A stretch of 64,000 nt of DNA from Alphaproteobacteria bacterium (GTDB lineage: Bacteria; Pseudomonadota; Alphaproteobacteria; UBA9219; RGZA01): the NCBI GenBank assembly GCA_033762625.1, contig JANRLI010000025.1, forward strand, positions 1 through 64,000, read 5' to 3'. Shown one piece after another: positions 42,673-60,146 of the stretch; position 1 is the stretch's first letter, and the number at the start of each line of letters is the position of its first letter. The position numbers and the translations under genes are program-made. Under the pieces are notes generated by a model, which was not told the origin of the DNA, did not search any database, and saw only the letters and a list, made by a program, of their open reading frames with translations.

Positions 42673-42801
42673 AATCTGCTTCCTTTCATCCTTGGATTAA
42701 AATGGATGCTTGCGGTGGATTTGATGCGGATGAATAATTATCATTTTTTTTGGCAACCATACGCGCAGCGTCGATAAATAATTCACGCGTCGTGGTGAAG
42801 C

Positions 42802-43899: not shown

Positions 43900-43900
43900 G

Positions 43901-43931
43901 GGTATTCCGGCAGTTTAGCCCAATTCCGGAT
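43901..43931 (-). promoter_or_regulatory. Ribosome-binding-site hairpin of operon A
   Basis: On the minus strand TCCGG (43930-43926) can pair with CCGGA (43910-43906), burying the GGAA that lies 5 bases before the Nudix-like gene's ATG. The same arrangement occurs before operon B, which suggests translational control. Confidence 0.5.
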
Positions 43932-44186
43932 ACACATTTCTCCTTGCGAACATAGTGCGGGCATAAACTACCCCGCTAAAGCGGGTAATCCAATCGCGCA
44001 ACATATACTGTCAGAGAGGTGATTCCGTCACTGGTGGTTATGGTGTTAGCGCCACGGAATTTACTTCAATAAAATGAATCGTCTAGTTAATTATTTTACT
44101 TTCGTATCATTTTTTCGTATCGACTCTTTGTCCAAATCAGCATACATATAAAGGTTCGTTCTGCTTCAACGCATCGAACGCAATAA

Positions 44187-44237
44187 CCCGCAGTAGGGTT
44201 GGTGTTAGCAAAATTCTGGCACTGCTGCGGGTTTTTT
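44187..44237 (+). terminator. Invariant core hairpin, copy A, with plus-strand U-run
   Basis: CCCGCAG (44187-44193) pairs with CTGCGGG (44225-44231) around a 31-base loop that contains GGTGTTAGC, and six T follow on the plus strand. Read on plus it looks like an intrinsic terminator with an unusually long, conserved loop. No plus-strand gene precedes it, so a short untranslated RNA is the simplest source of a transcript ending here. Confidence 0.4.
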
Positions 44238-44277
44238 AATTCCCAAAAATCAAAAATTTAAACTCGCAATATGCGTT

Positions 44278-45774
44278 CTATTGGCAATGCTGTTCAACCA
44301 ATCGGAACGAAGAACGTACGCCCATTGCAAAACCGCCTGTCGGCAAATCAGGTGGATATTGGGTGGCAGTGGAGTTCGCTTCGCGGAACGGCGCAAGGTC
44401 CATATACACAAAAGGTGCTTCCCTGCCCTTTTCGCCCAATACGCTTTCCACCTGCATATGCAACAGACTAAACACCATCAGATCATCATAGCGTTGGTGG
44501 CCTTCCGCCGACTGGATTAGTTCGGCACTGGAATGCGCCGCTCTCAATTCATTTTGCAGTGGCTTCAGGAAAGGCCGCGCTGTGAAATACTCCTGACATT
44601 CTGCCGCGCAGCGCATGAACTGCTCTTGAACCGGTTTGCGGTTTGAATACACCGATCCCCAGCCGGGAAATTCGGTGAATCCGTGCCAGCCGGTTGTACC
44701 AAATCCGATAATCAAATCAGGCCTTTTATGCTCGGGGCTTACCGGATGTGCCGCTTCATACAAAGCATCGGATAATATCAAACGGCCTTCGGCATCGGTG
44801 TGGGTCACCTCTAGCGTTTCGCCCTTGCGGGTTTTCAACACATCACCCTGCTTATACCCTTTCGGGCCGTTGGCATTTTCAACAACGGGCAACAATACGC
44901 GTAACCGCACCGGCAAATTCGCATCCATAATCATATAGGCGGTGCCTAACGCGTGCGCTGCCCCAGCCATGTCATACTTCATGTCGCGCATTTGGTCTTC
45001 ATACTTGGCATTGATACCGCCCGTATCGAAGACAACGCCTTTGCCTACTAACGTGATGCGTGGGTGCGATGGGTCGCCCCATTCCATGTCAATTAACCGC
45101 GGTTCCTCTTCCGAAGCTTTGCCGACTGCATAAATCAACGGATAATTGGCTTCTGCCAGTTTCTTTCCTTGAATGACGCTTATGGATGCGCCATATTTTT
45201 TGGCAAGCGCTCTGGCTTCATTCGTCAGTCCTTCACAATTCATAATATTGGAAGGCTCGTTGATTAAATCCTGAACAAAGCATGTCGCATTCAACTCACG
45301 TTGCAGCTTGGCTGCATCTGCCCCTTCCGGTATTTCCAAAAAAGTCTTTCGCGGCTTCCTTTTGGATTTATACTTATCAAACCGGTATGCTGCCGCGCCC
45401 CATCCAAACGCCAGATTATGCGCTTGCATGCTCGATAACCGGAGTTTTGAAGAAAGCTTATACGTTCCTTCACCCAGATTATCGACCCAGCCGGATAGCA
45501 TAAAACGGTCGTCGTATAATGTTTTAACCCGCTCATGGTCGATATAATCATCACTGACCGGAACATAGGCACGGGCGATCCTGTCCTGTGCATTATACCG
45601 ATAGGCTGCCTCTTTGGTTTCCGGATCAAAATTGTTTCGAAGCCATCTGCGCTCCTTTGCCGAAGCTCTCCGGCGATACTGCTCGACCGATTTCACAGAA
45701 AGCGGAACAAGTACAGGCGAATAACGCGGCGCTTTCCTGACCAGTGCCAGATCTTCAAGACGTTGCTCATTCAT
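44278..45774 (-). CDS. M17 leucyl aminopeptidase
   Basis: Cytosolic two-metal aminopeptidase, 498 residues, of the alphaproteobacterial PepA type. All catalytic residues are in place: K245 and D250 in VGKGVVFDTGG, D268 in MKYDMAGAA, and D327, E329 and R331 in HTDAEGRL. The N-terminal 150 residues are more divergent. It is the last gene of operon B, 37 bases after the 760-residue unknown protein. An M17 peptidase beside two nuclease-like giants is unusual; some M17 proteins also bind DNA (XerA/PepA role), which is a possible but unproven link. Confidence 0.93.
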   Translation of the reverse strand: MNEQRLEDLALVRKAPRYSPVLVPLSVKSVEQYRRRASAKERRWLRNNFDPETKEAAYRYNAQDRIARAYVPVSDDYIDHERVKTLYDDRFMLSGWVDNLGEGTYKLSSKLRLSSMQAHNLAFGWGAAAYRFDKYKSKRKPRKTFLEIPEGADAAKLQRELNATCFVQDLINEPSNIMNCEGLTNEARALAKKYGASISVIQGKKLAEANYPLIYAVGKASEEEPRLIDMEWGDPSHPRITLVGKGVVFDTGGINAKYEDQMRDMKYDMAGAAHALGTAYMIMDANLPVRLRVLLPVVENANGPKGYKQGDVLKTRKGETLEVTHTDAEGRLILSDALYEAAHPVSPEHKRPDLIIGFGTTGWHGFTEFPGWGSVYSNRKPVQEQFMRCAAECQEYFTARPFLKPLQNELRAAHSSAELIQSAEGHQRYDDLMVFSLLHMQVESVLGEKGREAPFVYMDLAPFREANSTATQYPPDLPTGGFAMGVRSSFRLVEQHCQ

Positions 45775-45811: not shown

Positions 45812-48094
45812 TCACATTGCGTTGCGCGATGCTTCACGCACACCAACCACACCGCCGCTTTTTGCCGTGCGCACCGCTTCTGGCCGCGTTCCAGCCATAT
45901 CGATTTTTTGCGCGGCATCCTGTCTGCGCTTCAATTCTGCAAAATCATCAATATGCGATAGGTGGCGGGTACGCACAGCCATGGCCAAACGACCTTCCAG
46001 CGCTGGTTTGATTTCGTCGTGCCACAATTTTTCAAATGCCTGTTGATCATATGCGCCGGGCTGAACCGGCAAGCGGTGCCAGTTCATGTTTGCAGGAAGA
46101 AACAGTTTTTCCTTTCCGCGCAAATCAGTAAATACCATCTGGCGCAGCGGGTGATCGGTCAGCAAACGGTGAAATGCCCATAACTGTGCAATCGCTGTTG
46201 CTGGTTCCACCAAATCACGCGCATCACGCCCAGCCTCTATTGCGTTTTTTAATTGCGGCCATATCGCCATGGCGCGGTCTGCCAAGCTTAGCGGCTTTCC
46301 GTTTTCATCAACCAAGCGAATGGTGTGTGGTTCATGCTCTGCGCCAGATTCTAAGCCCAACTGCATGCGGGTGGCCAAAATCATATCCTGTACGCCGTCA
46401 TTCGATTGTTCCCACATGCCGGTCTTGAACACAAAATCGGTCACATTACGCGCAAGATAACGATGCCGCGCCGCAAGACGCGCTGCGCTGCCCGGCATCG
46501 CTTCCCCCGGCGATACCGCAAATTCAGGCAGGTTCTGGAATACACCATAAAAACGCTGGAAATCGGACGTGCTGATTACGTGCCCGTGTACACTTAGCTT
46601 TTGCTGCAGTTCACGGATTGCAGAGCGATGTGGCTCGCGGATTTTTTTCTGGAACGCAGCACCTGCAACATTCGGCGCTTCATCGTTATAAGCAAGTTGT
46701 GCCGCTTCGTGTAATTTATCCGTTTCAGGGCCATATTTGTCATCCGCGACGATAAATAATGTGCGCTTGGCTGGCAGCATGAAGGTTTCCGCAACGCCCA
46801 GCACAAACTGCGCTTGCATCATTTCACGCTCGGTCAAATCGGCAATGATGGGGCGCGAGAAAATGCTTCTGCCATCATGGTCTTTAAGTGATTTGGCTTC
46901 AGTATCGCTCTGCCGCATGGGCGGCAAGAAAATATCGCCCGCGCCTAGCGCAAAGCCCTGCACATTCATCCGGCGGATTTCTTCGCTATTATAAATATCC
47001 GATTGCAAATCGGCATCGGAATATCGGCGCAAGGCGAATTGTTGGCTTAACCCTGATAGACTGATGGATGTTGCGGGAAGCACGCCGCCCTTTGCTGCAT
47101 CAACTGCAAAACAAAAATCGGGGTTAACAGTGTGCAAATCCACCGTATCAATTTCAAATTTATCGGCTTTGATTTGCGCCAGTAAAAACGGTTCAACCTC
47201 TTTTTGCAAATCGCGCAGTCCGGCGATATTCGCTTCAATCCCTGCCATGAAAACCGGGTTGGCGTTTGGCAGTAAGCCACGTTCCGCCATTTGCGCAATC
47301 GCCAAATCACGCACCAATTGCGTTGGTTCGATGTCCAGATCAAACTTGTTTTCTACGGCCCACACAAGATATTCAAGACGCTTTTTCGCCATTTCATATA
47401 GCGTAACTTCCTGTTTATCGATATCAGGAAAACTCATATCCGCTTGCGGTCTGCGGGGTTCTAATCCCGCTGCAATCAGTACTGCGCGGCCAAGCTCAAG
47501 GTGGGATGAACGAGAGAAATGCCAATCGCCTTGCATCGGCAACATGTTAATCAGCTCCACAATAACCGGATCCCACAACACCATGTAATCTTTATCTTTG
47601 CGTTTGACGCCACGATCAAAATTGGGCTGCCCCGACAATACCGTTGCTGCTTGCAAAAACGCCGGCACAATCACAGGGCTTTCAGGAAACAGGGAGCGAA
47701 GGAAACTTAAACCTTCAATCTGTGTGCGCTGGTTTGGCATAATGACTTCAGCAAGATATTGCTGCGAACCGATTTTTTCGTCCAAATCCAGCGTATCAAA
47801 CCCGCGCTTTAACGACCCGTCGCTGCGTTCTACCATGAACGGGCCGTTCATCTTCGCCTGATAATTTGCGCGCATGCCTTTTGAAATCGCGCCAAAACGG
47901 TAAATCGCACGTTTTCCTTGCAGCAACTGTGCAAGCGTTGCAAACGCCACCGTGTTTACCGCGCGCATCTGGTCAAACCGAGGTCCTTTCTTTCGCGCAT
48001 GCGCATGGTAAAACGGCGAAAACAATCCACGCTTTTCACCAAACAAATGAACGTCGCGGTACAATGCTGCGTGATCGGGTTCTAACATACTCAT
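45812..48094 (-). CDS. Unknown 760-residue protein of operon B
   Basis: Not recognised with confidence. Soluble, no signal peptide. Residues about 110-215 run LAEVIMPNQRTQIEG ... PVIVPAFLQAATVL ... DWHFSRSSHLELGRAVLIA, faintly like the D...SRGA..E pattern of nucleoside 2-deoxyribosyltransferase-like (DUF4406) proteins; this is only a hint. The C-terminal half is mixed helical, with a conserved-looking TLFIVADDKYGPETDKL. It overlaps the upstream exonuclease-like gene by 4 bases (ATGA) and has a GGAGG ribosome-binding site, so the two are translationally coupled. Confidence 0.7.
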   Translation of the reverse strand: MSMLEPDHAALYRDVHLFGEKRGLFSPFYHAHARKKGPRFDQMRAVNTVAFATLAQLLQGKRAIYRFGAISKGMRANYQAKMNGPFMVERSDGSLKRGFDTLDLDEKIGSQQYLAEVIMPNQRTQIEGLSFLRSLFPESPVIVPAFLQAATVLSGQPNFDRGVKRKDKDYMVLWDPVIVELINMLPMQGDWHFSRSSHLELGRAVLIAAGLEPRRPQADMSFPDIDKQEVTLYEMAKKRLEYLVWAVENKFDLDIEPTQLVRDLAIAQMAERGLLPNANPVFMAGIEANIAGLRDLQKEVEPFLLAQIKADKFEIDTVDLHTVNPDFCFAVDAAKGGVLPATSISLSGLSQQFALRRYSDADLQSDIYNSEEIRRMNVQGFALGAGDIFLPPMRQSDTEAKSLKDHDGRSIFSRPIIADLTEREMMQAQFVLGVAETFMLPAKRTLFIVADDKYGPETDKLHEAAQLAYNDEAPNVAGAAFQKKIREPHRSAIRELQQKLSVHGHVISTSDFQRFYGVFQNLPEFAVSPGEAMPGSAARLAARHRYLARNVTDFVFKTGMWEQSNDGVQDMILATRMQLGLESGAEHEPHTIRLVDENGKPLSLADRAMAIWPQLKNAIEAGRDARDLVEPATAIAQLWAFHRLLTDHPLRQMVFTDLRGKEKLFLPANMNWHRLPVQPGAYDQQAFEKLWHDEIKPALEGRLAMAVRTRHLSHIDDFAELKRRQDAAQKIDMAGTRPEAVRTAKSGGVVGVREASRNAM

Positions 48095-51000
48095 GCTGCG
48101 GCCCTCCGTTGGGGTGATTGAGGCGTGCGACCACGCAGTGGCCGTGTGGAAATAAAGGCTGCAACCGGCTGCTCCGCTCGGTTGAAATACGTATAGGTAA
48201 GCGTACTAACCGGCCGCTCCAGCTTCAAAACCCACAGCTTTTGCTTGGCAGGGTCAGCCACGCGCATATCAGCAAATAATTTTTTCCATTGGCTGTATAA
48301 ATCGGCAGCAGATAATTTGCCGAATTGCTGTGCCTGTGCATCGCTCATTTTGCGAATATCGTCCAGTGACATGCGCTGCGCTGATTTAAGGCGGCCCATA
48401 TATTCATCGCCCGTTTCTTCCCCACGGGACATGCGCCGCAAACGGATATTTCCTTTAGTGAATTCCTGACCTGTATCGCGCACGATAATTCCGGTAAGCT
48501 TCTTTAGTGGCTTGGGCAAGCCACCCGCGCGTGCATCGGCCAGCCCTGCCCAATCCTGCGCTGGCACAGCAACATGCTGGATATGCTCATCCACCTTACG
48601 TTCAAAATGCACAGGTGCCATTTGCTCGAAGCTTAAAAGGCGCAGCCCGTCAGCAAGGCCGGATAATCTTCTACCCACAGTGCCGTATGATGCCTGAGCG
48701 CGGGCTATCGCTTGCTGCGTTCGCTCGCCTTGGGGCGGCAAACGGTGACATACGGCTTTAGCTGCCAAACGGAACATGCCCGTTGCTTCGCCCACCAGCA
48801 GTACTGCTGTATCAGGCCCTGCCTTTTCAATGGCACGTAAAACGTCGCGGTTCGGGCGTTCAATAATATGGAAACGGTGCCAATGATCGTCCCAATCCGG
48901 ATGGTCCAGCATCACATCCGGCACTTTAAGCCGTATCAGTTTTTTAGGGTCGATGCGGTAGCGGGTATTCATTACGGGATATGCCGTCTGCGCATCATAC
49001 CCCATCAATTCCATTTTATCTGGCGTCCATGGATATGCTTTCAAGCGACGCTGCTTGTGCGCACGGTGTTCAGCTAGTAACTTCTGACCCTGTGGTGTTT
49101 TTAAAACTGTGCGTATGTAATCGCTGGCCGGTGTTTCCGCTGCCTTGTTCATCAACTGGTCAATTTCCAGTAATGCTTTTCGCTCGCTCATGCGGCGCTG
49201 TTCGGATGCTTCTAAATTCGGTGGGCCCTGCACGCCCAATGTGATGAATGCTTCGTAAAACGGTTTCCATTCCGCGTAATGCGTATCCACATATTTACGC
49301 CACCACGCTTGCCAGCGCGGGCTTCCCTGCTTGCCAATAAACGCATCTGCATCAAGCACACGCAGCGCCGTAATGATTGCGTGCAATTTATCATTACGTT
49401 CAAAGGTAATACGCAAATGATCGCCCGTTTCACGGTCTTCGCGCAGCGGCCATTGCCCTTTGCGCGTCGCGCTTTCCATCGCAATCACTTTTTCCCACGG
49501 TAAACGCTGCCCGCGTGAATTGATAACCCAGAACTCCGGCACGCAATTGAACAATGCCCCGCGGCATTGATGGCGCATCGTCCACAAATGCATGCGTGCA
49601 TCTTCAATCGTATCTGGCGCGATGCCTGTATCCGGCAAGGTGAATGGCTTATCCCACCCGACCTGATGGGCTTTAAGCTTGCGTTCAACTTCCTTCAAAC
49701 GTTCCTGATAATCCAGCAGCGCAGCCTCATCATCGCTGTATTCAATGGCGTGGCCTTCGGTTGCCCTACGCAGCAAGTAATCGAACTGACGCACATAATT
49801 CCATTTATTGGTCGCGCGCGCATACACATCCGGGTATTCGGTTTTGCGTATGGGAATAACTTGCCCCGTTGCCGCATCCTTATAGGCAAAATATTTCAAA
49901 TCACCGTATCGGCTATAACTATCATCTTCCAATAAACGCGTGGTTACGATATTGGGTGGGCGAGTGACACTTACTAAATCAAGCTGCGTTTCCATCACAC
50001 GCTGAATAAATCCGCGATGACTTAAGATCACATGGCGGCGGCGGTGATATTCTTCGGGCGGTTGCTGCCCGCCTGCGCCAGCCTTATAGGCACGGTCAAA
50101 TTCGCAAACTTGCGGTGTGCGGTTTAAAACCAATGGCACAAAAATCGGGTTATGCCGCTGCACGAGCAACGGGCGCAATTGTTCATGATTTAAATGCAAA
50201 ACATCATCTGGGTTATGGCATAAATTAAACAATAATGCGCGCTTGCGGTCGCCAAATCCGTCATATTCATCATCCGTAGCCAGCAACGTGCCAATCCCGC
50301 GCGTCAACATCCCTTCATCATAATGCACAAATCCAATTGCTGGGCGGTCAGTAAAATCATTCGTGCCTTGTAGAAAATCCTTATAGCTATTTCGCTCCGC
50401 CAAACCGGAAACAAAGCGCATGCCGTCAGGGTCAAGGCGGCGAAGATAGAAACTTAAAGCCGCTGTTCCCGCCGCATCTTCGTCCGATGCATGCATGATT
50501 TCCGGGTCAGGGTCGCGTCCATCATAAAATACTGCGCCGCCCTGAACGCCTCTGGCACGGTTTGCCGAACGGCTATTGGCCAGTAAAATATCGCCAAGGC
50601 GCGTCGAGCGCACCATGCGCTTGGTTTTTTTATGCCAGCGGTCAGGCAGCAGCAAACCATCCTTACCCTGTTTGCCAAACGCCCATTCCCAAATCGCTTT
50701 GGCGCGCACATCTTCACGGAACGTATCATGACGTTTCTGGTTTCCGGGGAACAAGCTTGCCATACCCATGCGCGCATACCAATGGCTTGCCATCGGGTCA
50801 TCGTAATTTTCGCCGTTAAAGGGTTGCGATACACCATAGATTTTTTGCCAATCTTCTTCACCCGCATAACGGAATTTCTTCCCGCTCTGGTGAATCTCCA
50901 GTTCAATCGGCGCCTTGCCATCGCTTGGCAATTCATATCTGAATCCTTTTTTTCCATCCGCAAACGTGACTTCTTCAAGCCCCAATACATTTCCATTCAG

Positions 51001-51402
51001 CTGCGTGGATTGTTTAAGGAAATTCTGCACCATGGTTGCCGCCATATGGCCCGGCCAACCCTGCGCCATATCACGCACGCTGATACGGCCAACCAACGCT
51101 GCGCCAATCGCGTAGGCTTGATGTTCCGGAATAGCGATGGGAATACGCAAATGCGCCAGCAACCGTCCGCGCAAATCAAAGGCCAGTGCAGCATACTCTT
51201 TTGGCACGGCACTGCCCGCCAGTTTATCGGATGCTTCGAAATCGTAGAACATTTCAATCAGCTTTCCGGCTTCCACCATATGCCGCACATCGTCATAGGA
51301 TGGCTGGTAATCGGGATGGGTTGAATAAAACGTCTCCCGCGCGGGCCCGCGGTAATAATCCATCGGAAAATTGCGATGCAGTTGCGGGTCTGGCGCATAC
51401 AT
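48091..51402 (-). CDS. Large protein with exonuclease I (SbcB)-like DEDDh core
   Basis: An 1103-residue protein. The first 460 residues follow E. coli exonuclease I: MFYDFEAS (D54, E56; ExoI YDYET), a PEHQAYAIGAALVGRISV stretch like ExoI's PQPGAVLITGITP, then FNGENYDDPMASHWYARM (second Asp, D201/D202; ExoI NNVRFDDEVTRNIFYRN). HASDED (H304, D309) gives the final His and Asp with the ExoI spacing. An ExoI SH3-like segment follows (ALLFNLCHNPDDVLHLN). The remaining 640 residues are unassigned. ExoI is about 475 residues, so this is more than twice normal. It starts inside the stop of the RNase J-like gene (TGATG). Confidence 0.75.
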   Translation of the reverse strand: MYAPDPQLHRNFPMDYYRGPARETFYSTHPDYQPSYDDVRHMVEAGKLIEMFYDFEASDKLAGSAVPKEYAALAFDLRGRLLAHLRIPIAIPEHQAYAIGAALVGRISVRDMAQGWPGHMAATMVQNFLKQSTQLNGNVLGLEEVTFADGKKGFRYELPSDGKAPIELEIHQSGKKFRYAGEEDWQKIYGVSQPFNGENYDDPMASHWYARMGMASLFPGNQKRHDTFREDVRAKAIWEWAFGKQGKDGLLLPDRWHKKTKRMVRSTRLGDILLANSRSANRARGVQGGAVFYDGRDPDPEIMHASDEDAAGTAALSFYLRRLDPDGMRFVSGLAERNSYKDFLQGTNDFTDRPAIGFVHYDEGMLTRGIGTLLATDDEYDGFGDRKRALLFNLCHNPDDVLHLNHEQLRPLLVQRHNPIFVPLVLNRTPQVCEFDRAYKAGAGGQQPPEEYHRRRHVILSHRGFIQRVMETQLDLVSVTRPPNIVTTRLLEDDSYSRYGDLKYFAYKDAATGQVIPIRKTEYPDVYARATNKWNYVRQFDYLLRRATEGHAIEYSDDEAALLDYQERLKEVERKLKAHQVGWDKPFTLPDTGIAPDTIEDARMHLWTMRHQCRGALFNCVPEFWVINSRGQRLPWEKVIAMESATRKGQWPLREDRETGDHLRITFERNDKLHAIITALRVLDADAFIGKQGSPRWQAWWRKYVDTHYAEWKPFYEAFITLGVQGPPNLEASEQRRMSERKALLEIDQLMNKAAETPASDYIRTVLKTPQGQKLLAEHRAHKQRRLKAYPWTPDKMELMGYDAQTAYPVMNTRYRIDPKKLIRLKVPDVMLDHPDWDDHWHRFHIIERPNRDVLRAIEKAGPDTAVLLVGEATGMFRLAAKAVCHRLPPQGERTQQAIARAQASYGTVGRRLSGLADGLRLLSFEQMAPVHFERKVDEHIQHVAVPAQDWAGLADARAGGLPKPLKKLTGIIVRDTGQEFTKGNIRLRRMSRGEETGDEYMGRLKSAQRMSLDDIRKMSDAQAQQFGKLSAADLYSQWKKLFADMRVADPAKQKLWVLKLERPVSTLTYTYFNRAEQPVAAFISTRPLRGRTPQSPQRRAAA

Positions 51403-54400
51403 CAGGCAAACTCCAGATGATCATGTTGTGGAAGCGATGGCGTGCGCATTCCTGATGTTGGCAAATTACGCCGCGCGGTCAGTTCGGGTGGTAATTCGGT
51501 CAATGCGGCGTTGATATCACGCCGATTGCGTTTGGCTGGTAACAGTTGCGCTTCCGATAATACGCGGTCGTAATCCTCATTACCGAAATCTTGGGTATAA
51601 ACCGTATTATTATTCGCAAACAATCCGCCAAGCGCGGTGCCAACCTGCCCTGCCGCCACAACCACGCGTTTATATTCCGCAGTGCCGCCATGATATTTAT
51701 CGGCGCGCCGGTTTTGCCGTGCTAGAATAAATGATGGTGGCAAATGCCCGATAATCTCCAGTCGTTTTCCGCCGTCGCGCATGGAAAACGCGGTGTGGTT
51801 TGATATCGCTTCACTCGGGTGTCGCAACCCTGCCTCACGCGCCAGTTCATGCGTAATGCGCGGCGATTCTAGTTTGCCGAAATGCTGCGCCGAAACCATG
51901 CCAACACCATTTTTCTTCATCCATGGGAAAACGCCTTGGCGGTAATCTTCTTTCCAACCGTGTCCGGGCGGATAAAGCGCAAATTTTTGAATGAACAATC
52001 CGTTATTAGGCTCGCGCGTAAAGCGTTCGCCTCTGCGTTCCAAATCCTGCAAGATGCGTGATAGATAAGGTTCTTTTAAATTGTAAAAGCGTGCGCCTTC
52101 ATGCACGGAAACCGCAACGGTGATGTCCAGTTCAATCGCGGTTTTCTTGATTTGCGCATACTGCGTTTCTTCATTACCCGGAATAGCGCCTTGCGCATAA
52201 ACCACCAGAAAATTACGTAAATCCTTGCCAAAGGCTGTCGGGCGATATTTGGGATCCATCTGCAAGAGCGAGCGAAACTCGGCGAGCTGCGTACCAAACG
52301 CATCTTTTTCAATATCGGTTCCCTGGCTACCGGTGCCAAGGATAAGCACGCGGCCAACATCCGCCTCCACAATAGTGTGCCATTCCTTGGCGGTGCGGCG
52401 GAAGTATTTAACAGGTACAACCCCTTCTCTGCCGCCATGCCAATCCAGATAAGCCTGCACATTTTTTCCGGCAGGATTGCGCGCAAGCACATTGGTGTTA
52501 ACACCCATCACGCTCATATCGGTAAAGCGGTCTTCTTTATACGCGCCAAACACCGATATATCGCGCTGCGACAAATTGGCAAAGCGCAGGCACATTTCAT
52601 CCTGCCGCTTGGCGGTGCTGAGGCCCAATAGAATAAGCCCTTTATCGGAAAACCATTCGTTCAGACGGCAAAGGTTCTGCTCGACATCCACCACATCGGG
52701 CGCAAAACCGTCGCGGTGAATGGATGTCGGGTCACACTCCATAAAATGCACTTTGCCAAATGCCGCGCCCGATACTTTTGGAATATCTGCATATTCAATG
52801 CCGATATTTTTTTTAAAGATACGCAACAAATCTTGTGAAAAACCGGTATCGGGCGGTTTCACCCCTTCATAATCCGGTAAATTGTAGCGCCCAAAGCTGG
52901 TATCCCCCATATTGCCATAGACCCAGTAATGCGGGTTGGGCGTAACCGATTTAGTTTTTGCGTTGCCCGCGATATCGCAGCGATAAGGAGCAGGCAAGAC
53001 AAGATAAGGGGTGTTATCCGTGCTATGCGGAATGCTATCAGCTGCATAATAAACCGACATCACCCGTTCATCGCCCGCATTTACATGAACAAACCCTTTG
53101 CCGCTGAGCGTGTGCATCAATGGCCAGCGTTCCTGCGGCACTTTGCGTTTCTTGAGTTTTTGTTCCAGCACGCGGCAAACAAACGCTGTTGCATGAAAAT
53201 GCTTTCCTTGCAGCAACCCGCGCGCGATGTAATCGATATATCCATCCAGATGGTCAGCGTGTAAATGCGTTGCAAAGAAATGATCGATGTCATCGAGATA
53301 ATTTACAATATCAGGTACAACGTAATCCCAATTGCCTTGTTCGCTTGCCTGCACCGCGTGGTTTTTACTGAAAATAATCCCTAAATCGATAATGACGCCT
53401 TTGCGCTGCACGCGGCCGTTCGCATCACGCCAATAGGTAAAAATGCCTTTGCAATTTCCGCCAATCGTTGCGCCAAATCCCGGCAGATATTCGCGGTCAT
53501 TATGTCCGCCAAATGGCACCACAACCATTTGCTTATGTTCATCCACAACGCCAGTCAGTGCGCGCTTATCCACCAAATTGCGCTGATCATATTCCGCAAT
53601 ATAATCCAGCACATGGGGATAACGACGCCGGCGCAAATCCTTCATCGCCTTGTTCACAATTCCGATACGTTTTTGCAGGTGTGCCGTTGGCAATTTGCAG
53701 CTTTCTTCGCCCAACACTACAAACTGGTCAAATACCGCATGGTCGCCCGTTACTTTCCAGCGCACATCGATTAAATCGGTAATCGGGCTGCCATGTCGCG
53801 CATTATGCGGCGTGGTTGCTGCGACCAGCGAACCATGCTTTGCATTTTCAATACGGCTTGCCTTGAAATTATGGATTGCACCATTTTGCCGATCAATTTC
53901 TGTTTTGCTGCGCGCTTCACCAAAATCATACATCGGCTCCAGATCATTGCGGCCAAGACCAAGCAGTTCCGGTAAATAATCATATGGCAATGGCTGCGCG
54001 CCTGCGCTTACCGGGTAATCAATCGGCGCTTGAAAATCAAAGCCGCCTTTGGCTGACATGCCCGGCAGATGCAAGCGTTCGCCGATGAGCGCTGCGATTT
54101 GAAAATCCTCCATGATTTTTCCGACATCCGGAAAATGCATATTGCGGATGTCGGTGTGCATGCGCTGCAAGGCGCCGAATAAACGCAATACACGGTCGGT
54201 ATGCTGGGGGTTTATGCCACGCCCCAATATGCTGGCCTGTTGCAACGTGAGATAATTTGGATAAGCGCGGAATGACAGTTCAGCCAATTTGCTGACCACG
54301 TATCGGCCATTCGGTTGCAGCAACATATATAATGTTTCAAGACTGCGCAGGCGCTTGTGTTCATCCAGCTTGATAATGGTTTTTAATACAACGCCGCCAC

Positions 54401-54590
54401 CGGTTCGCGGGTCAATTTCACCATCGCTTAGAATAATTGGTTCATTTTTGGTGAATGGCTTTACCGCGCCATCAAGTCCCAACAATTGCAGGCAATAGTC
54501 CGGCGAAAAAGCATTTGAAGACTTGCCATTTTTGCGCTGCACAACATCACGCGCAGCGCGACCCACATGGTACCGATCGGTTTTACTCAT
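51402..54590 (-). CDS. Large protein with RNase J-type metallo-beta-lactamase core
   Basis: A 1062-residue protein from ATG 54590 (GAGG seven bases upstream; the longer reading starts with TTG). Residues 1-350 are unassigned. From about 355 to 910 it follows RNase J: VVPDIVNYL before THLHADHLDG (H442, H444, D446, H447), GNMGDTSF (D563), DPTSIHRDGFAPDVVDVEQN (the RNase J SDSTN..PGFT stretch), LGTGSQG (752-757), AIPGNEE (802-808), PPGHGWKED and SAQHFGK (H903). The usual HSIPD motif reads DSIPH. RNase J is about 555 residues; the N-terminal extension is extra. DNA-acting MBL nucleases are an alternative. Confidence 0.8.
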   Translation of the reverse strand: MSKTDRYHVGRAARDVVQRKNGKSSNAFSPDYCLQLLGLDGAVKPFTKNEPIILSDGEIDPRTGGGVVLKTIIKLDEHKRLRSLETLYMLLQPNGRYVVSKLAELSFRAYPNYLTLQQASILGRGINPQHTDRVLRLFGALQRMHTDIRNMHFPDVGKIMEDFQIAALIGERLHLPGMSAKGGFDFQAPIDYPVSAGAQPLPYDYLPELLGLGRNDLEPMYDFGEARSKTEIDRQNGAIHNFKASRIENAKHGSLVAATTPHNARHGSPITDLIDVRWKVTGDHAVFDQFVVLGEESCKLPTAHLQKRIGIVNKAMKDLRRRRYPHVLDYIAEYDQRNLVDKRALTGVVDEHKQMVVVPFGGHNDREYLPGFGATIGGNCKGIFTYWRDANGRVQRKGVIIDLGIIFSKNHAVQASEQGNWDYVVPDIVNYLDDIDHFFATHLHADHLDGYIDYIARGLLQGKHFHATAFVCRVLEQKLKKRKVPQERWPLMHTLSGKGFVHVNAGDERVMSVYYAADSIPHSTDNTPYLVLPAPYRCDIAGNAKTKSVTPNPHYWVYGNMGDTSFGRYNLPDYEGVKPPDTGFSQDLLRIFKKNIGIEYADIPKVSGAAFGKVHFMECDPTSIHRDGFAPDVVDVEQNLCRLNEWFSDKGLILLGLSTAKRQDEMCLRFANLSQRDISVFGAYKEDRFTDMSVMGVNTNVLARNPAGKNVQAYLDWHGGREGVVPVKYFRRTAKEWHTIVEADVGRVLILGTGSQGTDIEKDAFGTQLAEFRSLLQMDPKYRPTAFGKDLRNFLVVYAQGAIPGNEETQYAQIKKTAIELDITVAVSVHEGARFYNLKEPYLSRILQDLERRGERFTREPNNGLFIQKFALYPPGHGWKEDYRQGVFPWMKKNGVGMVSAQHFGKLESPRITHELAREAGLRHPSEAISNHTAFSMRDGGKRLEIIGHLPPSFILARQNRRADKYHGGTAEYKRVVVAAGQVGTALGGLFANNNTVYTQDFGNEDYDRVLSEAQLLPAKRNRRDINAALTELPPELTARRNLPTSGMRTPSLPQHDHLEFA

Positions 54591-54620
54591 CAGCAAACCT
54601 CACTAACTAAAAACACGGCC

Positions 54621-55574
54621 TTATAAAAACTGCGCGGCGTGAACCATTCCTCCGTTACGCGTTCCGGGTCGGTGCGCAATCGATGGCGCGCCGCCGGTTG
54701 GCTTGGAAAAATCTCTCAATACACGGATCATGTCGGGCGTATTCGTAACCACTACGGCTTTGTCGGCGCGAAGCTGCGACAGACTTATGGTTCCTGCATG
54801 GGTCAACCGTTTGGGTGGTTCGGGATGGAATACAGCAACCTTGTTATCCAAACGCGCTGCTATTTCTGTGATTGCCTTGCAATCATGTGGATGCCCGCCA
54901 TGTACCACGGCATGGGCGGCGCCATTTGTATTCTGCAATTGTTTTACATGGTCGTCATTCATGGCGATGATGAGAAACGGCGCAGTCATGGCGCTGTGCG
55001 CCTTGTCATTCACCGCGCGATCATGCGTGCTTACCGCGATCAGGTCTGTATTCCTATTAAGCTTTTTTTGAGCGTAGGGTGTATCCGCATGACTATCCGC
55101 CATCCATCGCAAGCCATCTTTTGCAACGTCGAGCGCCATACTGGTATTCGCGCTAAACAGCCAGCTCAGCATATGTTCGCGGTTCAATTGCGGAGAGTGC
55201 AGGCTAATCAACGGAACATTACGGTCGAAAAGCAAAAAATCCCGCGCATCGCGGCTAAGGTCTATTTCCTTTTTGCGCGTTACATCTATGACCAGAATGT
55301 CGTAATGGTATCGCTCGCACAACGCCAAGGTCTTGCGCATTTTTCCGGTGCTATCGCGGCTGCTGTAATCGCAAAAAACTACGGCACGCTTTTTTTCACC
55401 CACAATCACCAACCCATGATTGGGAGGAATGAATTGCATTTTGGGTTGCGTCTGCGGCTCCGCAACCACAGGCTGATAAGCATGAGGACGTTTTGCGGCG
55501 CGCAAAACAGGTAACGCTTCACCTTGCGCAAGGCAAAGCTCCGCTTGTTCCTCTAACGACGTATCAAGGAGCAT
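54621..55574 (-). CDS. Unknown 317-residue protein, first gene of operon B
   Basis: Not recognised. The first 50 residues are low in order (PHAYQPVVAEPQTQPKMQ). The remainder alternates hydrophobic strands and helices like a Rossmann or receiver-type fold: GLVIVGEKKRAVVFCDYSSR, YDILVIDVTRKKEID, VPLISLHSPQLN, DLIAVSTHDRAV, APFLIIAMNDDHV and ADKAVVVTNTPDMI. No nucleotide-binding glycine loop or catalytic motif is sure. It lies 30 bases before the RNase J-like gene. The ATG is preceded by CCGGAA within the shared leader hairpin. Confidence 0.7.
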   Translation of the reverse strand: MLLDTSLEEQAELCLAQGEALPVLRAAKRPHAYQPVVAEPQTQPKMQFIPPNHGLVIVGEKKRAVVFCDYSSRDSTGKMRKTLALCERYHYDILVIDVTRKKEIDLSRDARDFLLFDRNVPLISLHSPQLNREHMLSWLFSANTSMALDVAKDGLRWMADSHADTPYAQKKLNRNTDLIAVSTHDRAVNDKAHSAMTAPFLIIAMNDDHVKQLQNTNGAAHAVVHGGHPHDCKAITEIAARLDNKVAVFHPEPPKRLTHAGTISLSQLRADKAVVVTNTPDMIRVLRDFSKPTGGAPSIAHRPGTRNGGMVHAAQFL

Positions 55575-55605
55575 AAAAATTCCGGCGATTTAGCCAATTC
55601 CGGAC
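55575..55605 (-). promoter_or_regulatory. Ribosome-binding-site hairpin of operon B
   Basis: TCCGG (55604-55600 on minus) pairs with CCGGA (55585-55581), covering the GGAA that lies 5 bases before the ATG at 55574. Stem sequence, loop length (14 bases against 15 in copy A) and spacing all match operon A. Confidence 0.5.
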
Positions 55606-55905
55606 ACAACTCTCCTCAGCCTGACCACACAGTTTAATGCGTTTTCAGTTCATAAACATGCGCCGCATATACCCCGCTAAAGCGGGTAAACATGCCGTGC
55701 CACATTTTAAATTTTAAATGAGTAGGGTTATTCCGTCACTGGTGGTTGTTGGTGTTAGCGTCACGAAATCTATATGATAAAAATGAATCGTCCAGTGAAT
55801 AATTTTACTTTCGTATCAATTTATCATATCGACTCTTTATGCAAATCATCTTACATTCTTAGGCTTCGTTCTTGTTTAATCACGCTTGATGATCACGAAC
55901 GTCTG

Positions 55906-55954
55906 CCCGCAGTAGGGTTGGTGTTAGCAAAATTCTGGCACTGCTGCGGGTTTT
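55906..55954 (+). terminator. Invariant core hairpin, copy B, with plus-strand U-run
   Basis: CCCGCAG (55906-55912) pairs with CTGCGGG (55944-55950), followed by four T on the plus strand. The 46 bases from 55906 are identical to copies A and C. The shorter T-run makes termination weaker than in copy A. Confidence 0.35.
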
Positions 55955-55979
55955 AATCCCACCATACATAATCAAAAAA

Positions 55980-56825
55980 TTACAACGCAGCACGGGCTTG
56001 AATTTGCATGGTTGCGCGCGTGCCACGTCCATGCAATTGCGTTTTAATATGCATGCCAAGCGCCGAAACATCCTGCTGTACAACGAAGCGATCCAATTGC
56101 GCATCCGTCATTTGCGGTATTAATATCGCGCGCTTTGTTGTGGGAATATAATAACACAGACCATCATATATTTCGCCTGCTGCCAATGCGCTGCGTGCAC
56201 CTGGCGGGCTATCTTCCAGTGCCACAACGCACGCACCTTCCAGATTATATCCATTACGCCGCAACACATCGCAGGCAATTTCATATCCCATCAAATACGG
56301 CTTGGGGTGTGGCTTACGGAATGGGATTTCAACATCATCGGCATTCACCAATCCATCGACCACTAATCCTTCGGCTTCTACTATTTTCAGATTTGCTCGT
56401 GCTTCCGTTCCTGCGCCATTGGTTACGGCAACCGCTGAAAAACCGATATTATTGGCCTTGCAGTGTTCACGCAGGGCCAGCACGGTTTCAATCACATCGC
56501 AGCGCGGGATCACACCGTCATGATTGCTCGTCACCCGATCCACAATTTCTTTTCGAAAAGTTTGTACATCTACCGGAGCATCAGGGATTTTTGATTTAAG
56601 ATAATAGTAATTTACTTCCCATGATGCGCCAAACAGCATGGTTGTTGCCACTTCCATCGCCCCATCCTTGTTCGGCATCGCAAATGTCTTGGGTTCAAAA
56701 AACTCGTGTGGTTCAAAGTGCAGACCATATTTTGCATACTGGGCAGTCATGGCATAACTTAAATGCTTGTCGGTATCAACCAGCGTGCCATCAATATCAA
56801 TCAACAGGATAAGCGATTTGCTCAT
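55980..56825 (-). CDS. HAD-superfamily phosphatase, last gene of operon C
   Basis: A 281-residue HAD hydrolase of subfamily I. The nucleophile motif is LIDIDGTLVDTDK (D10 nucleophile, D12), motif II is AVTNGAG, motif III Lys is in PFRKPHPKPYLMG, and motif IV is VALEDSPPGARSALAAG. A helical cap follows the first motif. The substrate is unknown; subfamily I members often act on sugar phosphates or nucleotides. It overlaps the metallophosphoesterase gene by 4 bases (ATGA). The last 50 residues are an extra tail. Confidence 0.88.
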   Translation of the reverse strand: MSKSLILLIDIDGTLVDTDKHLSYAMTAQYAKYGLHFEPHEFFEPKTFAMPNKDGAMEVATTMLFGASWEVNYYYLKSKIPDAPVDVQTFRKEIVDRVTSNHDGVIPRCDVIETVLALREHCKANNIGFSAVAVTNGAGTEARANLKIVEAEGLVVDGLVNADDVEIPFRKPHPKPYLMGYEIACDVLRRNGYNLEGACVVALEDSPPGARSALAAGEIYDGLCYYIPTTKRAILIPQMTDAQLDRFVVQQDVSALGMHIKTQLHGRGTRATMQIQARAAL

Positions 56826-58078
56826 AATGTAACTCCTGCATTCACCGCCGGCATACTCCAGCCAACATCGGGGCGCGGCGGGCGTTCTTTGGGTATGGGC
56901 GATAAATCACTGCGGTTTTTAAATATCTGCACACGTTCCGGCGTTACCGGATGCGGGTGTATCCCTAACTCGCGGTTGACAGTCATAATCTGCCATGACC
57001 CGTCAAGGTGCTCGACGGCAGCGGTGCAATGGGCATCATCCACCCAATCGCCGCTATCAATAAATACATAGCCGCGATGGTAAAAAATACCGGGATTATG
57101 AATATGGCCGTGAATACCGCCGCGCAATAATGGGCGCGGCTTTTGGTCAGGATGCGCACGGTTATACTCCACAATAGCTGCATTTTGATTGTCCAGAAAT
57201 TCAGCGTAGCGATCGTAATACTTCGTCATGTCCTTTTTGCCATCCATGCTATTTATATAATCGGTCATGGATGATGCTGTATCAGGAAACCCAAGGTTGC
57301 GTACCAGCGGCGCGACGCCATTGTGATAGACGCATGTTGCCAGCATTCCCAGCGTGCTGGATTTTTTCATCGGATTATCAAATTTATCGCCGTGGCACAC
57401 ATGCATGTGCTCGCCTGTCACGGTTTCATAAATAAATTCTTCCAAAACATCCATATTCCCTAATGACGGGCTTTTGAAATATGCGGTGCGTAATTTCGGG
57501 TCAACCGGCTGGCCGTTTTGCGCTGTAACCAGCGCGGCCGCATCCTCTCCCATCAGGTGCAATTCATTGGTAAAGCCACGAAAAATTTCATCATGGTTCC
57601 CTGGAACAAAAATACCCGGCACTTTGCGCAGAACACGCAACAGCTTTTGCAGGGGAATATTATGCGACTGTCCCCAACGCATCGTCTCGTCATCATAGGG
57701 TTTGAATACTTCCCATTTAACCATCCGCAACGAAACATGCGCTGCAAGCCTTAAAAACTTTAACGCAGTGCGCATATGCGTATCATCTTTGAATATGCGG
57801 CCAAGGTGTTGCGGGCGCGATGCACGGAACAGCCAGTAATCGATAAAATCGCCATTAATCACAATTTTGTTGGCAAGGCGCGCCCGATCCAGAAAAATCG
57901 ATTGCTTATCGGTTTTGCTGTCTGGCCGCCCCAAATGCAAATCCGACATGAAGGCGGTGCGGAATTCATGGATGGGTAAATCGGTGTCCGGCATGTCCAC
58001 GCCGGCAAGCGGTTCCAGTATCCGGTGCAACGTATCAAGTTCGCGGTCAGTCAGCAGTAAAGGCGCAGCGTCATTCAT
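56822..58078 (-). CDS. LpxH-like calcineurin-type metallophosphoesterase
   Basis: A 418-residue phosphoesterase with all the metal motifs: MSDLHLG (D46, H48), INGDFIDYW (D77), VPGNHDE, CHGDKFDN and GGIHGHIHNP. The arrangement resembles UDP-2,3-diacylglucosamine hydrolase (LpxH) and related lipid-phosphate enzymes, though it is about 170 residues longer than LpxH. LpxI is already encoded in the lpx cluster, so a different lipid or nucleotide-sugar substrate is likely. It lies 17 bases after the glycosyltransferase gene in operon C. Confidence 0.88.
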   Translation of the reverse strand: MNDAAPLLLTDRELDTLHRILEPLAGVDMPDTDLPIHEFRTAFMSDLHLGRPDSKTDKQSIFLDRARLANKIVINGDFIDYWLFRASRPQHLGRIFKDDTHMRTALKFLRLAAHVSLRMVKWEVFKPYDDETMRWGQSHNIPLQKLLRVLRKVPGIFVPGNHDEIFRGFTNELHLMGEDAAALVTAQNGQPVDPKLRTAYFKSPSLGNMDVLEEFIYETVTGEHMHVCHGDKFDNPMKKSSTLGMLATCVYHNGVAPLVRNLGFPDTASSMTDYINSMDGKKDMTKYYDRYAEFLDNQNAAIVEYNRAHPDQKPRPLLRGGIHGHIHNPGIFYHRGYVFIDSGDWVDDAHCTAAVEHLDGSWQIMTVNRELGIHPHPVTPERVQIFKNRSDLSPIPKERPPRPDVGWSMPAVNAGVTL

Positions 58079-58095
58079 GGTTTTAAATATTTATT

Positions 58096-59391
58096 TCATA
58101 CAAACGGAGGTTGGGATTGATTGCGCGGCCGGCTTCGAAGCATAGCGCGAAGCCGCGCACCGGGGCGCACGACCATGCGTCCGGGTAAAACTATTGCCTC
58201 AGCTGGTGGAGAAACCGGATTTGCATCCATGATGCTTTCCAGCATTTTTGGAATTTCAAACACTGCGCGATTATTAAGACGGCGTGCGTTGGAACTGTGT
58301 TGGTCAAGCCGCCCGTTATTTAACAGGAACGTCGCGGCGCGCCCGATATGGGCAAAGTTATCGATGGAAACACCCAGCTTGTTTTCTTCCGCCCATATGA
58401 TGTTGTAGCGTTCCTGAATCATCGTGCCACGATTGTTCAAGAGCACCACCGGCAAACCCAAATGCAAGGCCTCGCTCATGCTGCCAGGGCCGGGTTTGCC
58501 AATAAAAAAGTTGGCAAGCCGCATGTAATCGGCAACCTTTTGGGTAAAGCCAATTGCGTGACACCCTTCTATGCCCTGCAAATCTGCCAATAATTGCTTG
58601 TTATGCCCGCACAGCACGATGCTTTGAATGCCCTGCTGCAAAAGCTTTAGCGCGATGCCCTTGGAAACGATCGAACCATTACCGCCGAACATAATCAGCG
58701 CTGTTTTTTTATTGGGGTCTAACCCAATCGCCTGATGGGTCAACGGTTTATTACCGGCATCTTGATAAAACGCGGGCCGCAAAATCATGCCCGATGTTTC
58801 CAAAATACGTTCAGGGCGATAAAAACCCGACATATGCGCTTGCAACGCAGCCTTATGACTGCCAACGATGATGTACTGGTCCTGGTTTTCCATCCAGAAA
58901 TGCGGTGGGCTATCCGCGATATCCGTCATGATGGTGACATAAGGCACATCTTTATGCACGTCACGCAGTGCATCGAACATCACCTTGTTAAAATTCGGAA
59001 CCACGGAAACAATCAAATCGGGTTTTGATTGCACGAAATGCGCGCGCAGCACTTTTTTCATCGGCGCTGCATTCATGCGTATGCCGCGCTGTAATGCGCG
59101 AAGGAATGGCCGCGAGCCATAGGTCCAGCCGCGTTTAATCGCCGCATTATAAATGGTTTCGGCCTGAACGCCCGTCACCTGATAGACAGGGTCGGCTTTT
59201 TTCAAAAGCTCCTGTAAATTAACTAGCTCAATATCCCAACCGGGATAGCTTGCCTTTGCGCTTTGGATAAGCGCTTCGGCTGCGCTACGATGCCCTCCGC
59301 CTGCATCAAAGAAATAGAGCTGAAGCTTACGACGTTTGGACGGCGCATCACTCGGATGCACGTCCTCTGATAAGGCATGTTGCTGGGTCAT
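58096..59391 (-). CDS. MGDG-synthase-like glycosyltransferase, first gene of operon C
   Basis: A 431-residue GT28-type glycolipid synthase. The N-terminal motif FDAGGGHRSAAEALI (GGGHRSA at 31-37) is the acceptor-lipid loop of MGDG synthases and processive diacylglycerol glucosyltransferases. VVPNFNKVMFDALR and TIMTDIADSPPHFW follow, and the donor half has IMFGGNGSIVSKGI and IGKPGPGSMSEALHLGLPVV. It probably transfers a sugar to a membrane lipid. Operon C thus looks like a glycolipid unit with two phosphatases. The ATG is preceded by CCGGAATCCAT within the shared leader. Confidence 0.88.
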   Translation of the reverse strand: MTQQHALSEDVHPSDAPSKRRKLQLYFFDAGGGHRSAAEALIQSAKASYPGWDIELVNLQELLKKADPVYQVTGVQAETIYNAAIKRGWTYGSRPFLRALQRGIRMNAAPMKKVLRAHFVQSKPDLIVSVVPNFNKVMFDALRDVHKDVPYVTIMTDIADSPPHFWMENQDQYIIVGSHKAALQAHMSGFYRPERILETSGMILRPAFYQDAGNKPLTHQAIGLDPNKKTALIMFGGNGSIVSKGIALKLLQQGIQSIVLCGHNKQLLADLQGIEGCHAIGFTQKVADYMRLANFFIGKPGPGSMSEALHLGLPVVLLNNRGTMIQERYNIIWAEENKLGVSIDNFAHIGRAATFLLNNGRLDQHSSNARRLNNRAVFEIPKMLESIMDANPVSPPAEAIVLPGRMVVRPGARLRAMLRSRPRNQSQPPFV

Positions 59392-59414
59392 ATGGATTCC
59401 GGCACTGGATCCAG
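59392..59414 (-). promoter_or_regulatory. Ribosome-binding region of operon C
   Basis: The CCGGAA box and the 5-base spacing to the ATG match operons A and B, but the upstream TCCGG partner is replaced. A different stem is possible here, TGGAT (59413-59409 on minus) with ATCCA (59397-59393), which would leave the box in the loop. Confidence 0.35.
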
Positions 59415-59684
59415 CACACGAAAATCCACATTTCGCTATGAAGCGTTAAAGCACGCGCGTCAAAACCACCCGCAAAAGCGGGCGATCATCGCCGTTCAAA
59501 CATTTCAGAGTAAAAATGGATTCTGTCACTGGATTTGGTTGGTGGTGTTAGCACCGCCAAATCTACGCATCTGGCCTGAATCGTCTAGCTAATTATTTGC
59601 AAATCATAGCGATTTAACCGGATGACTTTTTATGCAAATCAGCGTATGGTTTAAAGCTTCGTTTCTATAAACAGAAACGATCTG

Positions 59685-59730
59685 CCCGCAGTAGGGTTGG
59701 TGTTAGCAAAATTCTGGCACTGCTGCGGGT
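59685..59730 (+). terminator. Invariant core hairpin, copy C, without a clear U-run
   Basis: CCCGCAG (59685-59691) pairs with CTGCGGG (59723-59729). The 46 bases are identical to copies A and B, but the plus-strand tail reads TTCTAAC, so termination would be poor. Conservation of the loop in spite of a decayed tail argues that the core has another role. Confidence 0.3.
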
Positions 59731-59792
59731 TCTAACTTTCCCCCCTTACATACCGTACCGTGTGCGCATCAACGTAATAGGTTGTTTGTGCA

Positions 59793-60146
59793 TCAAACTT
59801 TTTTGACGAATTCCGACTTTAAATACATCGCGCCGATACCATCGATTTTACAGGCAATGTCATGCCCATCCACCGGATCAGCAACAAGGCGGATGTTCTT
59901 GACCTTGGTCCCGCTTTTGACCGTGGAAGATGAACCCTTCACCTTCAAATCCTTGATTAATGCAACGGTATCACCCGTGGTTAGCACATTGCCATTCGCA
60001 TCACGGATTTCGGTATGAGTTGCGGCCTCTGGTTCATGACTAGCTTCCATATTCCATTCATAAGCGCACTCCGGGCATACCAATAACGCGCCATCTTGAT
60101 AGCAATATTCCGATCCGCATTTAGGGCATTTGGTTGGCTCGCTCAT
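59793..60146 (-). CDS. yjdM: Zinc-ribbon alkylphosphonate-type protein YjdM/PhnA
   Basis: A 117-residue protein with an N-terminal zinc ribbon ([21 protein letters not shown]) and the C-terminal PhnA domain ([20 protein letters not shown], then [10 protein letters not shown]). The start is ATG 60146 ([10 protein letters not shown]); a longer reading would run into tRNA-Arg. Despite the PhnA name, its link to phosphonate use is doubtful and the function is unknown. Confidence 0.92.

Follow-up and report, generated by a model that had tools for sequence, protein, structure and literature searches.

An LpxH-like phosphoesterase beside a predicted glycolipid synthase

Why should a bacterium that already has LpxI for lipid A synthesis also encode an LpxH-like phosphoesterase, and why in one operon with a glycolipid synthase? 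The question is raised by operon C, three genes on the - strand of a 64,000-nucleotide stretch of an alphaproteobacterial contig (GenBank JANRLI010000025.1; this whole stretch is hereafter the window, a part of contig C25 of genome G000, which comprises 2.23 Mb in 26 contigs and carries a completeness rating of 100%). A glycosyltransferase gene comes first (GT, 59391-58096, 431 amino acids), followed by genes for a calcineurin-type metallophosphoesterase with inserts (MPE, 58078-56822, 418 amino acids) and a HAD-superfamily phosphatase (HAD, 56825-55980, 281 amino acids), at exactly the positions given by an initial annotation of the DNA. Only 17 bases separate GT from MPE, and MPE and HAD overlap at ATGA. 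Operon C looks like a modified form of a pair already known to remodel bacterial membranes, in which PlcP lies beside a glycolipid synthase, and it is probably a second, accessory kit for membrane-lipid remodelling that, by analogy, would release a headgroup and then add a sugar.

The GT belongs to family GT28. It passed the cut-off of Pfam PF06925 (26.4 bits against 25) and has long matches to two relatives of solved structure, monogalactosyldiacylglycerol (MGDG) synthase 1 (4wyi, E 1.9e-21, residues 20-384) and a processive diacylglycerol (DAG) glucosyltransferase (9wde, E 1.5e-16, residues 107-373). Together, the family score and the long matches place it with the MGDG synthase/UgtP enzymes of GT28, as the initial annotation had proposed in calling it MGDG-synthase-like. 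Its motifs GGGH, KPGPGS and QERYN are intact, and it has GGGH, KPGPG and QE in common with both solved enzymes. The score against NCBIfam PRK13609 (diglucosyl-DAG synthase) lay far under the cut-off (74 bits against 500), and MurG was matched weakly (E 0.0017). What distinguishes the GT from 4wyi and 9wde is that it forms a subfamily of its own, with relatives in 8 of the 33 sampled genomes that belong to the same order and in none of 63 others (8/96 in total); a profile search of a sample of the class returned 6 of 289 genomes, two with matches of near full length and four with weak and partial ones.

Assignment of the phosphoesterase

MPE scored 22.0 bits against Pfam PF00149 (cut-off 21.5) and far less than the cut-offs of the LpxH models TIGR01854 (14.1 of 190.35 bits) and PRK05340 (19.3 of 134 bits); LpxH models matched at E 5e-4 and 0.021. 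A fold search with its structural model placed solved LpxH structures at all of ranks 1-21; no entry among the PDB matches of MPE is named PlcP, so LpxH may have headed the ranking because a nearer structure is wanting. In the published work, LpxH and LpxH2 differ by an arginine in block 3, the LpxH2 of Sinorhizobium meliloti measures 281 amino acids (PMC3087551), and a characterised PlcP comes from S. meliloti, with LpxH serving as its outgroup (PMC9239053). From these two sources taken together, a synthesis of our own, LpxH2 and PlcP appear to be two names for one family.

To place MPE we aligned 25 chosen sequences, namely MPE, its sister, 22 other proteins of the LpxH2/PlcP type and Escherichia coli LpxH. 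MPE has the motifs SDLHLG, GDFIDYW, GNHDE, HGDKFD, GHIH and GDWV..CTA..E, and their general forms (SDxHLG, GDxxDxW, GNHD, HGD, GHxH and GDWV..CTA..E) are common to MPE and the 22 others, with single departures in the most distant rows. The signature of the type, D..GD..GNHD..H..GHxH together with GDW[VL]..x[TS]A..E, is found in MPE, its sister and all 22. E. coli LpxH, by contrast, has GNRDF where MPE has GNHDE and is without the GDWV..CTA..E block, and BLAST gave MPE 100 bits to the best LpxH2/PlcP-type row against 25 bits to E. coli LpxH. With LpxH, then, MPE shares the overall fold and the metal motifs, but it has no GNRD arginine and scores far under the LpxH cut-offs. With LpxH2 (annotated ‘UDP-2,3-diacylglucosamine diphosphatase’, PMC3087551) it shares the GNHD block, HGD, GHxH and GDWV, but it is longer (418 amino acids against 256-304 in the 22 other rows) and its GDWVDDAHCTA carries two extra residues. 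Judged by sequence, MPE is a far-diverged LpxH2/PlcP-type protein with an LpxH-like fold; the earlier label ‘LpxH-like’ holds for the fold but not for the type of protein. Of 289 genomes sampled from the Alphaproteobacteria, 97 contain relatives of MPE, as do 17 of the 33 genomes of the order.

PlcP-glycosyltransferase pairs in this genome and elsewhere

Published PlcPs have a Mn-dependent phospholipase C activity (PMC8231724) and convert phosphatidylglycerol or phosphatidylethanolamine to DAG, and the transferase adjoining plcP makes MGDG or glucuronosyl-DAG (PMC8231724, PMC8528852, PMC9239053), so that glycolipids are made from PlcP-derived DAG by adjacent glycosyltransferases (also PMC4796936). 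This plcP-agt architecture is present in G000 itself, where the ordinary PlcP-type gene (which contains G000:C5:80561-81010) is followed directly, in the same direction, by a GT4 open reading frame (ORF). The 802-amino-acid ORF after this gene (L073:2103-4508, - strand, G000:C5) has a GT4 first half and a Kdo-transferase domain (PF04413, 183.6 bits) in its second half, apparently an Agt-WaaA fusion. By eye, a GT4-like ORF adjoins the PlcP-type gene in at least 4 of 11 other regions (L075, L080, L081 and L083), a lower bound because crude ORF picking hid coding frames in several of the remaining regions. Among five neighbourhoods in plasmid records, the ‘UDP-2,3-diacylglucosamine diphosphatase’ lies beside a glycosyltransferase in three (Parabacteroides, Pannonibacter and Sphingomonas), and no adjoining glycosyltransferase was seen in the other two (Sinorhizobium pSymB and Thioclava). 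We also noted, again by eye, that in four alphaproteobacterial regions (L075, L079, L080 and L084) the ordinary PlcP-type gene has on its opposite flank a DAG-kinase-like ORF with an NPTAG or NPVAG motif.

Operon C has in common with the PlcP-Agt pairs of Alphaproteobacteria and Pseudomonas (PMC9239053, PMC8231724, PMC4796936, PMC8528852) a PlcP-type enzyme and a DAG glycosyltransferase, here predicted, in one operon, with the family motifs kept. It differs in that the transferase is of GT28 (MGDG/UgtP type) rather than a GT4 Agt, the phosphoesterase is far diverged and bears inserts, the transferase gene comes first, a HAD gene is added, no Pho box was found (see below), and an ordinary pair exists in the same genome. 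The pairing of PlcP with GT28 may not be unheard of, since the DAG glucosyltransferase that accompanies a Methylobacter-type plcP scaffold is mentioned with a citation of Bacillus ypfP (PMC9239053).

Within the genus, the sister genome G002 has the entire operon C block in unchanged order (amino-acid identity 82% for GT, 87% for MPE and 82% for HAD), and the third genome, G001 (98% complete), is without the GT, an operon-C-type MPE, the metallo-beta-lactamase (MBL) protein of the neighbouring operon B and the intergenic element discussed below, and has only a weak PlcP-type match. Operon C, present in G000 and G002 and absent from G001, is therefore accessory within the genus.

Proposed function of operon C

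In the remodelling proposal, MPE would take the phosphate headgroup off a glycerophospholipid to leave DAG, on which the GT would place a hexose from a UDP-sugar to give a lipid of the MGDG or glucosyl-DAG type. HAD, recognised by PF00702 (38.7 bits), PF13419 (28.3 bits) and the motifs DIDGTLVD, KPHPKPY and ALEDSP, with no PDB match at E 0.01, might dephosphorylate a small phospho-compound such as the released phospho-headgroup. We infer the substrates, the order of reactions, the product, the purpose and the role of HAD by analogy with the published pairs. The proposal draws on the solved relatives of the GT, which are DAG glycosyltransferases, on the GNHD form and GDWV..CTA..E block that MPE has in common with LpxH2/PlcP-type proteins, and on the packing of the operon and its synteny in G002. 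The initial annotation had likewise suggested headgroup release and a rebuilt membrane, which agrees with the enzyme types and the PlcP-glycosyltransferase precedent, but the control by phosphate starvation that it attached to this idea found no support.

Several observations weigh against the proposal. The identity of MPE is only 22-28% in BLAST alignments spanning most of the family domain (29-36% to the other rows of the 25-row alignment), and its inserts were modelled at low confidence. In the tree of the 25 phosphoesterases the MPE fork was unresolved and its branch very long; the probable kinship of MPE with PlcP is read from motifs and BLAST scores. The pair itself was seen in two species of one genus only. 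Six other genomes of the order have this GT with no such MPE or HAD adjoining, a count to be read with the contigs of three of them (L030, L031 and L032) breaking off roughly 0.6 kb or less from the GT, so that the absence there is unproven. Conversely, the divergent MPEs of G018 and G012, which by eye seem to have single insert features in common with MPE, were without such a GT in the stretches inspected, of which that of G018 stops at the gene.

A different role for the same two enzymes is not likely, but it deserves to be weighed: MPE would be an LpxH-like pyrophosphatase acting on a sugar-nucleotide or glycolipid diphosphate and, with the GT, would make or trim a precursor of a surface glycolipid or polysaccharide, with no replacement of phospholipids. 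The nearest solved folds are indeed those of LpxH, further glycosyltransferase genes, including those of heptosyltransferase type, are found at other places in the window, and there is the weak resemblance of the GT to MurG. However, MPE bears the LpxH2/PlcP motif set, LpxH may top the fold ranking by default as no PlcP-named structure was matched, and Pseudomonas aeruginosa lpxH2 is reported not to have taken the place of E. coli lpxH (PMC3087551).

The shared intergenic element

The DNA before operon C carries a conserved element. The initial annotation had spoken of a leader common to operon C and its neighbours; a shared element does exist, in three copies, yet within the window its hairpin is stable chiefly on the strand that does not encode the operons. 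Copy C lies upstream of operon C (59392-59745), copy B (55575-55966) in the gap that separates HAD from operon B, and copy A upstream of operon A (43900-44247), as delimited, without assignment of strand, by alignment of copy C with five further copies and by a DNA search of 33 genomes. G000 and G002 have three copies each and none elsewhere, all three of G000 being inside the window. A 45-base core is identical in 6/6 copies, against a mean column identity of 69% over the whole element and 50-62% identity between G000 and G002 at the fourfold sites of five neighbouring genes. On the + strand, which points away from the operons, the cores of all three window copies (59685-59729 in C, 55906-55950 in B and 44187-44231 in A) reach folding energies of -25.4 to -26.0 kcal/mol, with z between -2.9 and -4.1. 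The - strand gives only -12.1 to -14.6 kcal/mol (z 0 to -1.6). In 6/6 copies the core is followed on the + strand by a T-rich tail, with 4-6 T in 8 bases (4 in C, where the run is broken, 5 in B and 6 in A).

The core thus has what marks an intrinsic terminator or the 3' end of a small RNA, a stable stem (3/3 window copies) and a U tract (6/6 copies) on the same strand, and because these lie on the strand opposite the operons, it may be the terminator or small RNA of a divergent transcript rather than a leader. This reading has to accommodate the broken T run of copy C and a second hairpin in the element that varies on the + strand (z -3.6 in C, -2.8 in A, +1.1 in B and -0.1 in the sister's copy C). 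Consensus scans of 55500-60000 gave no excess over shuffles (4 promoter hits against 7.3, and 7 terminator hits against 5.9); they pointed to no promoter for such a transcript, and the element core was not listed. Rfam contains no family matching the element at E up to 1, and a scan of 33000-61000 gave two tRNAs and two sub-gathering matches, none of them in the element. Searches of viral contigs with exact patterns, of phages with copy C and of plasmids with the G008 copy described next did not find it.

G008, from another family of the same order, has a diverged copy (39 bases at 85%, E 2.8e-5; L118 at about 1500-1700, G008:C175, also L122), in which the motif GCTAACACCAAC recurs further on; the window copies show the same recurrence with small changes. 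Its hairpin keeps 10/10 pairs of the outer stem on the same strand, two of them through changes in both partners, but pairs further in are lost (15/18 kept overall), and the energy of this single divergent sequence is not above shuffles (z -0.64). Downstream, in the same relative direction, lie a 159-amino-acid ORF, a RusA-like ORF at 22.6 bits against a cut-off of 22.8, and a gene for a 5'-nucleotidase (122 bits; 127.6 bits to the PADLOC candidate PDC-S08). In two families, then, the element stands before operons that encode hydrolytic enzymes, a suggestive pattern that depends on a single copy from outside the genus. It would be a bold and rather unlikely reading that the element is an undescribed regulatory RNA family, the mark of an accessory regulon for ‘macromolecule breakdown’. 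Such an RNA, transcribed in the direction leading away from each operon, would bring these operons under joint control by some signal that is not PhoB. Under such a scheme one element-linked operon would break phospholipids and cap them with sugar and others would contribute RNase J-like, PhoH, aminopeptidase and subtilase genes; the targets in G008 would be the RusA-like nuclease and 5'-nucleotidase genes.

Control by phosphate

The initial annotation had suggested that operon C could act under phosphate limitation, as part of a starvation response that recovers phospholipid phosphate and is controlled together with nucleases. Pho boxes do precede plcP and agt genes elsewhere (PMC4796936, PMC8528852), the G008 element stands before a RusA-like protein and a 5'-nucleotidase, and operon B has an RNase J-like protein, but we consider this version unlikely. 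PhoU had no match in this genome, rated 100% complete, although 13/14 control genomes match (the Bacillus subtilis control is the exception), and the best PhoB match reached 181 of 296.2 bits, a cut-off that only 2/14 control genomes pass. The search for Pho boxes that the initial annotation had proposed gave nothing above shuffles in 6/6 element copies (at best 9 or 10 positions out of 14 agree, a score that between 35 and 98.5% of 200 shuffles attain as well); the ordinary PlcP-type gene of the same genome scored no better, so the scan had no positive control and its sensitivity is unproven. With no PhoU, a PhoB under the cut-off and no Pho box above shuffles, each an imperfect test, PhoB control of operon C is unlikely in this genome.

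Neighbouring operons

Operon B encodes three large proteins (45812-54596, - strand), a 1064-amino-acid RNase J-like MBL and proteins of 1103 and 760 amino acids, which recur in G016 (30%, 25% and 24% identity in alignments) and in G032 (46%, 42% and 40%, split over two contigs; L034, L035 and L036 for the two genomes). The MBL matches RNase J-like proteins weakly (E 0.0022 and 2.5e-4) and was not found in phages. The earlier suggestion that nucleases share the element is weakly supported, by this MBL, and no family was found for the 1103-, 760-, 365- and 317-amino-acid proteins of the neighbouring operons; the first two had no match in Pfam, PHROG or PADLOC and nothing useful in PDB profile searches. 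By eye, a YDFEASD stretch in the 1103-amino-acid protein is reminiscent of DEDD exonucleases. An M17 aminopeptidase gene (44278-45774, - strand) lies in the window, whereas the sister species lacks one at the site that separates the 760-amino-acid gene from the element. The stretch that parts the 365-amino-acid gene from PhoH measures about 1.1 kb in the sister and holds, by eye, an ATP-grasp-like gene (L027:4058-5163); the corresponding 130 bases or so of the window (42672-42802) look like deletion remains.

Could operons A-C and their elements instead form one accessory island of the conflict or defence type, with enzymes that degrade lipids, nucleic acids and proteins, either the cell's own or those of an invader? 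The joint absence of the GT, MPE, MBL and element from G001 would fit, as would the similarity of the G008 nucleotidase behind the element to a PADLOC candidate and the recurrence of the operon B trio in G016 and G032 with no GT adjoining (a HAD adjoining the trio in G016 is by BLASTP unrelated to that of operon C). We nevertheless think this quite improbable: for the nine proteins of operons A-C the sole hit in PADLOC was that of the PhoH protein, weakly, to a RecD-like family, PHROGs gave only PhoH-, helicase/exonuclease V- and HAD-type families, and a lipid glycosyltransferase would be an odd component of such a system.

Coexistence with LpxI

The LpxI noted earlier is indeed present (11326-12150, - strand), with 211 bits to NF047836 against a cut-off of 400 (E 1.5e-62). 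It sits between lpxA and lpxB, its place in Alphaproteobacteria (PMC3087551). At E 0.001, TIGR01854 matched nothing anywhere in the genome; of 14 control genomes 3 match, 1 of them over the cut-off. An LpxH-type protein beside LpxI is ordinary for Alphaproteobacteria, which have LpxI and often an LpxH2/PlcP-type protein, and the puzzle of an LpxH despite LpxI dissolves because MPE is of the LpxH2/PlcP type and not an E. coli-type LpxH. That MPE is a redundant LpxH backing LpxI in lipid A synthesis, for which its fold might speak, is extremely improbable, and we rejected it on the sub-cut-off LpxH scores, the want of a genome-wide TIGR01854 match, GNHD in place of GNRD, and LpxI at its usual place.

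Implications

If the remodelling proposal is right, PlcP-type glycolipid remodelling can employ a GT28 synthase as well as the GT4 Agt, and it can occur twice in one 2.2-Mb genome, with no need for PhoB control. The conserved element, the less ordinary part of the locus, would then offer a concrete handle on what turns on the second kit.

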